DNA of 59,692 bases from Candidatus Desulfobacula maris (GTDB taxonomy: Bacteria > Desulfobacterota > Desulfobacteria > Desulfobacterales > Desulfobacteraceae), in assembly GCA_014383445.1 (NCBI GenBank), contig JACNHV010000234.1:1-59692 (forward strand), given 5' to 3'. Position 1 is the first letter of the stretch. Every line of letters starts with the position of its first letter. The position numbers were made by a program, and so were the translations under genes. Below the pieces are notes generated by a model. It saw nothing but the letters and a program-made list of their open reading frames with translations, was not told the origin of the DNA and searched no databases. Shown piece after piece: positions 13,658 through 14,936 of the stretch.

Positions 13658-13742
13658 TGTGTTGTCTTAACACAAACCTTTAAACTCCTTTGAACACAGG
13701 GAGTTTAACCTTTGCTGCCAAACTTGATATCAACAAGTTTGG
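13658..13742 (-). other. Structured leader of tRNA-Leu(TAG): three hairpins in a row
   Basis: Between the promoter at 13755-13783 and the mature tRNA lie three inverted repeats: CCAAACTTG/CAAGTTTGG (13718-13726 with 13734-13742), TAAACTCC/GGAGTTTA (13681-13688 with 13700-13707) and TGTGTT/AACACA (13658-13663 with 13669-13674). They would give an approximately 100-nt precursor leader of consecutive stem-loops. The function is unknown. Confidence 0.6.
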
Positions 13743-13754
13743 GAACGAAAACGA

Positions 13755-13783
13755 CTTATATAAAAAACCATGTGAAAAGTCAA
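13755..13783 (-). promoter_or_regulatory. Sigma70-type promoter for tRNA-Leu(TAG)
   Basis: TTGACT (13778-13783), 17-bp spacer, TATAAG (13755-13760) on the minus strand. Confidence 0.65.
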
Positions 13784-13903
13784 GTAAAATTACATTTTTA
13801 CAGGCACAGACAAAGCCTGAAAATTACGCATGGAAACAAGAAAAAAATTAAATACTCTCTTAATAATGGGAATTTTTTTACCAATTTATATTACATTTTT
13901 TCC

Positions 13904-13921
13904 ATAGGTAAAAATACCTAT
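13904..13921. promoter_or_regulatory. Inverted repeat upstream of the sigma54 promoter (possible activator site)
   Basis: ATAGGTA (13904-13910) and TACCTAT (13915-13921) are perfect inverted arms around AAAA. The centre is about 47 bp upstream of the -24 element of the promoter at 13959. Sigma54 promoters need an upstream enhancer-binding protein, so this is a candidate site. No regulator gene is adjacent. Confidence 0.45.
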
Positions 13922-13958
13922 ATAGGCTAATTGGGCCTCTTGGAGTGTTATCAGCGCA

Positions 13959-13974
13959 TGGTATATTTTTTGCT
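13959..13974 (+). promoter_or_regulatory. Sigma54 (-24/-12) promoter for the riboswitch/PEP-CTERM transcript
   Basis: TGGTATATTTTTTGCT has the GG and GC doublets at the exact sigma54 spacing (consensus TGGCAC-N5-TTGCA). A start site about 12 bases past the GC falls near 13985, some 10 bases before the c-di-GMP aptamer begins. That fit supports the call. Confidence 0.65.
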
Positions 13975-13993
13975 TATTATTCCTAATAATCAT

Positions 13994-14068
13994 GTAAAAA
14001 TGCCAAACCTGTTGTAAAGCAGGGACGGAAAGCCAAAGGGTCTTATGGTGAGATAGCCTGGTTGCGTT
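13994..14068 (+). promoter_or_regulatory. Cyclic di-GMP riboswitch, GEMM-I type
   Basis: The element has the GEMM-I hallmarks in order: AAATGCCAAACC, then a short hairpin (CCTG/CAGG), GGGACGGAAAGCC (14022-14034, consensus GGGACGCAAAGCC), a second hairpin with a GGGTCTTATGG region, and the closing ATAGCCTGGTTGC. It lies directly upstream of the ribosome-binding site (AAAAAGGAG) of the PEP-CTERM gene. I see no clear intrinsic terminator between aptamer and gene, so control of translation initiation is the simplest reading. The direction of control cannot be told. Confidence 0.9.
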
Positions 14069-14089
14069 AAATAAAAAGGAGATTTAATC

Positions 14090-14728
14090 ATGAAAAAAAA
14101 ATTTATTTTATTGTATGCATTGTTTTTCTTATTAGTATTTAATTGCATGGCATGGGCAATACCAGTCAGTATCACCTACACCGCAGATAATATAGTTGGT
14201 GGCTGGTATCAGAACGGTGGATCTCCTGATAGTTTAAGTAAAAATAGTAATTATGATACTTGGCAGATAGCAGATACCGAGGTCTTGGATCTTTTGCCCG
14301 GTCATGAATATCAACTTGTTTGGCAGGTTCAAAACGTTGGTGATCAGAGCGATGGCAATCCAGCAGGATTTTTAGCTCAAATTGATCTCGGTCCGGAATT
14401 AATTTTGACATCTTCCAGTTGGAAAATTTCAAACAATTTGAATGGGAACACCACTAATTTTAATGACAGCGCATGGGGTTGGTATAACGCTACAACCTTT
14501 GGAACGAATGCTTCGACGGATCCTAATATTTGGAGTCCGGTAGCAGGCATAGACGCAGGAGCAAGCTGGATTTGGGATAAAGATAATTTTAGTAGTATAA
14601 ATTTTCAAGAATTATATATTAAAGCCACTTTTGAAACAGCTCCAGTCCCCGAACCAGCAACAATGCTCCTATTTGGTCTTGGCATGTTAGGCATTGCTGG
14701 AGTCAGTAGAAGAAAACTTCAAAAATAA
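14090..14728 (+). CDS. Secreted PEP-CTERM sorting-domain protein
   Basis: The 212-residue protein has a Lys-rich start and hydrophobic signal peptide (about residues 1-23, ending near MAWA), a Trp/Asn/Ser-rich beta-type secreted domain, and a textbook PEP-CTERM tail: VPEPATMLLFGLGMLGIAG followed by the basic SRRKLQK. PEP-CTERM proteins are processed by exosortase and associate with exopolysaccharide and biofilm matrix. Expression appears to be under sigma54 and c-di-GMP riboswitch control, which fits a switch to sessile growth. The central domain is not recognised. No exosortase gene lies in the window. Confidence 0.9.
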   Translation: MKKKFILLYALFFLLVFNCMAWAIPVSITYTADNIVGGWYQNGGSPDSLSKNSNYDTWQIADTEVLDLLPGHEYQLVWQVQNVGDQSDGNPAGFLAQIDLGPELILTSSSWKISNNLNGNTTNFNDSAWGWYNATTFGTNASTDPNIWSPVAGIDAGASWIWDKDNFSSINFQELYIKATFETAPVPEPATMLLFGLGMLGIAGVSRRKLQK

Positions 14729-14734
14729 ATCCCC

Positions 14735-14884
14735 ATGGATAAGAAAGCTTTATTACGGGATAATGATGGCAGGCGTTCAGTGAAGAATGATCGGCGGATA
14801 TTTTCATGTGCCGAGTATTCCCCTGAAAGAAGAGCCGGTAAAGACCGAAGATCGGTTTTAAATAGCCGTTGTAAAAAAAGATAA
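14735..14884 (+). CDS. Small Arg-rich protein (49 aa) downstream of the PEP-CTERM gene
   Basis: This ORF starts 6 bp after the PEP-CTERM stop codon and is in the same frame, separated only by that TAA. It encodes a very basic peptide with two related segments, DGRRSVKNDRR and PERRAGKDRRS. Such RR-x-GKDRR motifs recur in small deltaproteobacterial proteins and tails, as far as I recall. There is no strong ribosome-binding site, so translation would depend on coupling. It ends just before a strong terminator, which places it inside the same transcript. The function is unknown. Confidence 0.5.
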   Translation: MDKKALLRDNDGRRSVKNDRRIFSCAEYSPERRAGKDRRSVLNSRCKKR

Positions 14885-14904
14885 CTATCATTTAAAAAGA
14901 TATG

Positions 14905-14936
14905 GGCAGAGTCAGCAATGACTCTGCCTTTTTATT
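14905..14936 (+). terminator. Rho-independent terminator of the PEP-CTERM transcript
   Basis: A perfect 10-bp stem GGCAGAGTCA/TGACTCTGCC with a GCAA loop is followed by TTTTTATTT. It may also stop minus-strand tRNA-Leu(CAG) transcription, since a T-rich run occurs on the other side too. Confidence 0.9.

Follow-up and report, generated by a model that had tools for sequence, protein, structure and literature searches.

The window, by which we mean the whole stretch of 59,692 nucleotides of Candidatus Desulfobacula maris that was analysed, carries a sigma-54 promoter, a GEMM-I aptamer, a PEP-CTERM gene, a small Arg-rich reading frame and an intrinsic terminator that follow one another on the forward strand (Table 1). 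These elements had been described from the DNA in an earlier note, whose coordinates proved correct to within 1-2 bases. The leader contains almost nothing beyond the aptamer and a Shine-Dalgarno sequence.

Table 1. Positions of the features of the PEP-CTERM unit and of its upstream region in the window.
Feature	Positions	Strand	Description
Activator-binding-site-like motif TATTACATTTTTTCCATAGG	13889-13908	+	50 nt before the -24 element
Palindrome ATAGGTAAAAATACCTAT	13904-13921	.	ATAGGT-AAAAAT-ACCTAT; overlaps the end of the activator-like motif
Sigma-54 -24/-12 element TGGTATATTTTTTGCT	13959-13974	+	GG-N10-GC, 12/12 consensus positions
Predicted transcription start	13985	+	geometry only, from the C of -12 at 13973
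GEMM-I (c-di-GMP-I) aptamer	13993-14070	+	covariance-model matches RF01051, RF03167
Shine-Dalgarno AGGAGA	14077-14082	+	6 nt 3' of the aptamer
212-aa PEP-CTERM protein	14090-14728	+	N-terminal signal helix, beta-rich body, C-terminal sorting tail
49-aa Arg-rich protein	14735-14884	+	RR-DRR...PERRxGxDRR type; 6 nt after the PEP-CTERM stop
Intrinsic terminator, end of the unit	14904-14929	+	11 pairs (6 of them G-C) around a loop of 4, T-run behind

The -24/-12 element claimed in that note, TGGTATATTTTTTGCT, is the sole exact match to the consensus TGGYAYRN4TTGCW (TGGYAYRNNNNTTGCW) on either strand of the 59.7-kb window, versus a mean of 0.21 matches in 100 shuffles. The transcription start had been placed about 10 bases before the aptamer, and the geometry of the promoter predicts it 8 nt before; the strong terminator was likewise found at the end of the unit. 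The genome encodes rpoN (462 bits versus a cut-off of 277). One could argue that the -24/-12 match arose by chance and that a sigma-70-type promoter drives the gene, as the sequence is AT-rich and a sigma-70-like site (9/12) is present at 13797-13824. This is very improbable as the region holds about as many sigma-70-like sites as chance would give (5 versus a shuffle mean of 3.9), and both the placement of the sigma-54 sites and their recurrence, described below, argue against a fortuitous match.

The covariance-model search of the GEMM-I family that had been proposed gave matches over the cut-off with both RF01051 (58.3 bits versus 35) and RF03167 (59.8 bits versus a gathering score of 59, hence barely over), and extended the aptamer slightly from the 13994-14068 first assigned. 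At the positions that we take to be equivalent to the pocket residues G20, A47 and C92 of Vc2, the window aptamer has G, A and C. An A at the G20 position marks the GEMM-Ib (cGAMP) riboswitch; G instead occupies this position in 27 of the 28 aligned aptamers, that of the window among them, and c-di-GMP is thus predicted as the ligand over cGAMP. Many Geobacter GEMM-I RNAs have 3',3'-cGAMP as their ligand, and an A is found at the selectivity position both in L120 and in a second copy from the same genome (L004). The G of the window and of nearly all the aligned aptamers, however, makes 3',3'-cGAMP an improbable ligand here. This position is a selectivity factor and no hard filter, according to the accessible part of one study (PMC9262584).

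The helices of the aptamer covary, with double changes that keep the pairing at 9 of the 14 pairs predicted from the alignment of 28 aptamers. P1 is marginal in the window, with a duplex energy of +0.6 kcal/mol and pairs flagged as non-standard in the covariance-model match, and none was predicted by RNAalifold in the aptamer alignment. The P1 strands of 21 sigma-54 leaders, taken as a set, form better pairs than permuted partners do (p 0.017). In Vc2, binding is reportedly abolished when P1 is lost (PMC9262584, in its accessible part). We also observed a start codon followed at once by a stop (AUG-UAA) at 13992-13997, at the 5' edge of the aptamer.

The proposal that the 212-aa product is a PEP-CTERM protein was borne out by PF07589, which matched residues 185-208 (E 9e-9, 35.5 bits versus a cut-off of 20.7); its match to the floc_PepA model NF033554 was below the cut-off (37.7 versus 80 bits, E 1.9e-9). 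No PHROG family, no sequence relative in the PDB at E 0.1 and no relative in named genomes by protein query was found for this protein, and its AlphaFold model was of low confidence (mean pLDDT 60, 3 sequences). Two exosortases over the cut-off were identified in the genome, on contigs C22 and C328. One is clustered with glycosyltransferase-like proteins and a PrsT-like TPR protein that falls just below its cut-off (304.2 versus 312.2), and the second adjoins a PEP-CTERM-associated FemAB-like protein that is over its own. The tail of the protein and the presence of exosortases suggest that it would be exported and passed to an exosortase, and its family suggests that it might have a role in biofilms.

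The earlier note had envisaged the making of a single exosortase substrate. The window gene is indeed a predicted substrate, but it is not the only one, as the genome has 8 PEP-CTERM matches over the cut-off and another of these genes shares the layout, with a degenerate aptamer. This second sigma-54/aptamer/PEP-CTERM unit (L131:5590-5669 in G000:C22) lies on the contig of an exosortase cluster and has an A at the ligand-selectivity position of its aptamer.

The 49-residue Arg-rich ORF, also part of the original description, is conserved and under purifying selection. Compared with two relatives, it gave dN 0.18 / dS 0.64 and dN 0.17 / dS 1.56, and these ratios of ~0.28 and ~0.11 make the protein very probably real; searches of Pfam, NCBIfam and PHROGs returned no family for it. 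The ORF has no clear Shine-Dalgarno sequence of its own which, with the six-base gap behind the PEP-CTERM gene, suggests that it is translated by coupling to that gene. Homologues at E 0.01 are present in 23 of the 58 genomes searched (own genome included). Seven were directly seen after PEP-CTERM genes (the window, two in G021, G009:C39, the first unit of G003:C305, G014:C228 and L222), with an aptamer in 5 of these 7 units, and most others among the 20 homologue loci examined had no PEP-CTERM-type ORF directly before them. Arg-rich proteins of 44-48 aa with a PERRSGxDRR motif, again with no PEP-CTERM gene directly before, were noticed in several genomes of the genus (L141, L143, L144, L146 and others).

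To compare the leader with others, 58 genomes were searched; the genus was represented by 26 genomes, its own included. RF03167 matches were found in 39 of the 58 (own genome included). Of at least 150 such matches, 127 were analysed and 23 were left out, two because they lie at contig ends and 21 with scores of 40.4 bits or less; among those left out, L240, L252 and L308 were regained through the PEP-CTERM survey described below and one by reading L109. Merging 15 members of tandem arrays reduced the 127 to 112 independent aptamers. When a sigma-54 site was required to agree at 10 or more of 12 positions and to predict a start 0-60 nt before the aptamer, 27 of the 112 had one (among the matches listed), whereas 100 shuffles gave a mean of 0.62 and a highest value of 4, and the reverse strand gave 0.

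The distribution of these promoters was far from uniform. In the genus, and among the matches listed, sigma-54 sites preceded 11 of 12 aptamers before PEP-CTERM-type genes, 0 of 15 before other complete genes (Fisher p 9e-7) and 6 of 7 before cut or missing genes, where PEP-CTERM calls were made by our own tail expression and not by an HMM, and next-gene calls by a simple rule on start codons that failed in at least one case (L308). Among the matches listed from other genera of the family, the counts were 4/12 for PEP-type genes versus 0/15 for others, including L073, whose PEP-like tail is doubtful and which was retained here and in the terminator counts; for the rest of the order they were 0/2 and 6/49, again among the matches listed. 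By these counts, the link between sigma-54 and PEP-CTERM genes is strongest in the genus. Eight further PEP-CTERM units with an aptamer were found later in the genus, 7 of them with sigma-54. This brought the collection to 20 PEP-CTERM-type units with an aptamer, and in 18 of these the sigma-54 start is predicted 0-19 nt before it. Only L240 and the second L109 unit, the latter situated downstream of another unit, lack a recognisable sigma-54 site. The notion of one regulated unit put forward for the window thus looks right, as sigma-54 and GEMM-I elements stand in series before an exosortase substrate, the basic ORF is placed for coupling, and the layout recurs in those 18 of 20 units. When the upstream regions of the 20 were aligned at E 1e-10, full-length alignments were obtained for two pairs only and one of ~60 nt for a third; in the other pairs, it is mainly the aptamer that aligns.

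The PEP-CTERM genes of the genus were also surveyed independently of aptamers. From 168 matches, 100 were taken, none of them from the window's own genome and mostly outside the units already collected; 98 could be parsed and 93 had 200 nt of upstream sequence, and the aptamer frequency in this sample is no population rate. A sigma-54 element was present within 300 nt of the start codon in 72 of the 93 genes, with 3.25 expected from shuffles. In the window's own genome, five further PEP-CTERM genes could be parsed among the seven other matches, and all five have a site that agrees at 11 or 12 of 12 positions. A covariance model built from 28 aptamers located aptamers ahead of a further six PEP-CTERM genes in the genus and recognised the degenerate one before the gene on contig C22; together with the first unit of L109, these complete the 20 units. 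The survey counts, the 18 of 20 units and the scarcity of upstream alignment among these units suggest that sigma-54 is the constant element of the PEP-CTERM regulon, with the aptamer as an optional addition.

An unsupervised search upstream of 83 sigma-54 PEP-CTERM promoters returned a genus-wide motif, TATnACATTTTTTnCAnAAT, with a log-likelihood of 197 versus at most 95 in 12 shuffled sets. Motif 1 of Haft et al. 2006 is 17 nt long with TTTACA at its end and is located 32-92 nt upstream of motif 2, as given in the accessible part of that paper (PMC1569441). The window motif TATTACATTTTTTCCATAGG resembles that description, which was the basis of comparison rather than the logo, and its 50-nt spacer falls in this range; it differs in not ending in TTTACA. 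Simple counts of TTACA half-sites were near chance (10/17 versus a shuffle mean of 6.9 and a highest value of 12) and were superseded by the de novo motif. The palindrome ATAGGTAAAAATACCTAT, whose first base (13904) is also where the range of the earlier note begins, occurs with identical ATAGGT-N6-ACCTAT arms in L033 and L092 and in a looser form in L127 and on the C22 contig of the same genome. AGGT-N5/6-ACCT was found in 3 of 17 sigma-54 promoters versus 1 of 17 other promoters of the genus, with a shuffle mean of 0.035. PrsR was considered as the activator and rejected, its best match in the genome scoring 424.5 bits versus a cut-off of 502.6, as was PrsK (99.1 versus 300 bits). The PrsR model had 38 matches in this genome at E 1e-20, the best of them full length.

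The locus of G021 is syntenic with the window, with tRNA genes adjoining and the same RibF-like gene downstream. At the DNA level, the promoter, the aptamer and the first codons align (window 13665-14102, 72.7%), as do the sorting tail and the first part of the small ORF (14639-14758, 77-80%), and the body of the PEP-CTERM gene is left unaligned between them. At the protein level, the second G021 copy matches past the tail (46% over 84 aa). Relatives of the protein body were found only in G004 among the 58 genomes; these (L318, G004:C24) have a VPVPA-type tail, sigma-54 sites at 10/12 and no convincing aptamer. VPVPA- and PEP-type tails on related bodies suggest an exchange of sorting tails.

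This comparison bears on whether the aptamer still works. If sigma-54 alone mattered, the aptamer could be a decaying remnant that has lost its switching, and the weak P1 of the window would fit such decay, as would the degenerate aptamers found in the genus behind intact sigma-54 elements (L255, without a helix, and L308, L314, L252 and the copy on contig C22, all eroded). We find this rather unlikely for the window, as its copy retains the pocket positions and the RF01051 score given above, and its leader is 73-79% identical to the syntenic G021 leader in front of a coding body that can no longer be aligned. In L255, L308, L314 and L252, the erosion of the aptamer could possibly represent the loss of a second gate.

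We consider it likely that the window holds a member of a sigma-54 PEP-CTERM regulon whose leader has gained a GEMM-I c-di-GMP aptamer. To judge from sequence conservation, an enhancer-binding protein near 13889-13921 would activate RNA polymerase-sigma54 at 13959-13974, with transcription starting near 13985. Binding of c-di-GMP may then alter the access of ribosomes to the start site at 14077-14092, and that access would determine how much of the PEP-CTERM protein is translated and, through translational coupling, how much of the 49-aa protein. The window leader showed no terminator between the aptamer and the gene. Among PEP-CTERM-type leaders, a terminator-like hairpin overlapping the aptamer was present in 1 of 15 with sigma-54 versus 8 of 11 without (p 8e-4, L073 included), and four terminator-like matches past the aptamer in sigma-54 PEP-CTERM leaders were excluded as leader terminators as they lie in or across the coding start. 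Since a terminator is lacking in the window leader and in most sigma-54 leaders of PEP-CTERM genes, these leaders probably act on translation. A search of 16 leaders for an alternative fold that masks the Shine-Dalgarno sequence revealed no common switch, and folding gave no clear change in its access (0.53 unpaired with the aptamer forced versus 0.50 free).

The direction of the response is harder to read from the leaders. In L033, L040, L099 and L127, four sigma-54 leaders that belong to other or cut genes, a terminator uses the aptamer's own 3' strand, and ligand binding should prevent termination there, which is an ON geometry. For this reason, we lean towards c-di-GMP as an ON signal; it is no more than a lean because the terminators of two other sigma-54 leaders (L030 and L031) do not overlap the aptamer and give no support to an ON design. 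Vc2 is a translational OFF switch (PMC9262584, accessible part) and a precedent for the opposite sign. The window aptamer ends 6 nt from the Shine-Dalgarno sequence with no terminator found, and the bound aptamer could thus block the ribosome as in Vc2. Besides the ON geometry of the four leaders, a further point speaks against this. Matrix proteins are expected at high c-di-GMP, and control by c-di-GMP as an OFF signal, if possible, is the less likely arrangement in the window.

To our knowledge, few studies have addressed the tie of c-di-GMP to the exosortase/PEP-CTERM system. If this reading is true, a leader whose transcription requires an activated enhancer-binding protein and whose RNA then senses c-di-GMP would link surface sensing directly to the output of matrix proteins, and it would show how an RNA sensor is gained and lost by individual members of an existing regulon. 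The recurrence of the pairing at related genes of Desulfobacula makes it possible to test whether a probable matrix protein is controlled by two signals. More broadly, and only tentatively, the recurrent module of a sigma-54 start and an aptamer within the initial 100 nt of the mRNA might serve Desulfobacterota as an AND gate for surface-sorted proteins, in which leader and tail are kept, the body is exchanged and an Arg-rich partner is co-translated in part of the family.

Each half of this arrangement is known. Control of PEP-CTERM genes by sigma-54 through a -24/-12 site, with the PrsK/PrsR/PrsT regulon, was described by Haft et al. 2006 (PMC1569441), and pepA of Aquincola is RpoN-dependent (PMC9850573), as stated in the accessible parts of both papers. 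The regulon of Haft et al. shares with ours the -24/-12 site before PEP-CTERM genes, an upstream motif at a similar distance and an exosortase genome, and our count of 72 in 93 genes agrees with it. It differs in that the genome studied here has no PrsR over the family cut-off and, like the Aquincola system, in that no leader aptamer is described in the text available for either. For the other half, c-di-GMP riboswitches precede PEP-CTERM/VPLPA-CTERM genes at 4 loci of Methylophaga nitratireducenticrescens GP59, where a sensor is likewise paired with the gene of a sorted protein; this organism belongs to another phylum and the promoter type is not discussed in the accessible text (PMC12530212). 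Compared with the GEMM-I riboswitches of RF01051 and RF03167, the window leader has the same aptamer core, pocket residues and 5' leader position; it is different in standing behind a sigma-54 promoter with a predicted start 0-19 nt before the aptamer (as in 18 of the 20 PEP-CTERM units of the genus), in its weak P1 and in the lack of a terminator in most sigma-54 PEP-CTERM leaders. In Desulfovibrio vulgaris, DVUA0057 is a regulator of PEP-CTERM genes, with five predicted PEP-CTERM targets enriched in DAP-chip; it is again a response regulator acting on such genes, although the word riboswitch is absent from the text as far as it is accessible (PMC3333781). In a literature search by titles, abstracts and passages that covered few subscription journals, no report was found of PEP-CTERM genes at which a sigma-54 promoter and a c-di-GMP riboswitch are stacked. 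The stacking of the two would be the new part, each half being covered in what is accessible of earlier work (sigma-54: PMC1569441, PMC9850573; riboswitch: PMC12530212).

The combination is not confined to the genus. A DNA-only pattern of sigma-54 plus GEMM-I was found in 55 stretches from named genomes, most of them titled Desulfobacterota or Deltaproteobacteria; among the sources are two isolates, Desulfoluna spongiiphila AA1 and D. butyratoxydans MSL71. In an Rfam scan that left out L211, GEMM-I was over the gathering score in 44 of 54 pattern stretches (16/18, 14/18 and 14/18). Outside Desulfobacterota and Deltaproteobacteria, those over the cut-off came from Acidobacteria (two), Nitrospirae and bacterium UASB270 (two); the pattern cases in Competibacteraceae, Methylothermaceae and Rhizobiales were below the Rfam GEMM-I cut-off. 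Among the 56 pattern matches, 17 have a PEP-CTERM-type ORF that begins within ~600 nt, and 7 of these had already been counted as genus loci. Other genes are found behind similar leaders: in L184, L186, L199, L208 and L211, from Syntrophaceae and other Deltaproteobacteria, a sigma-54 + GEMM-I-like pattern precedes related 63-aa proteins, and among the four of these loci that were scanned (L211 left out) only L186 reaches the Rfam cut-off. Tandem arrays of GEMM-I were also observed, with six aptamers in L037 (G043:C109:691-1207) and four each in L041 (G051:C79), L067 (G051:C75) and L043 (G054:C1), all preceding small, probably exported proteins of ~150-170 aa.
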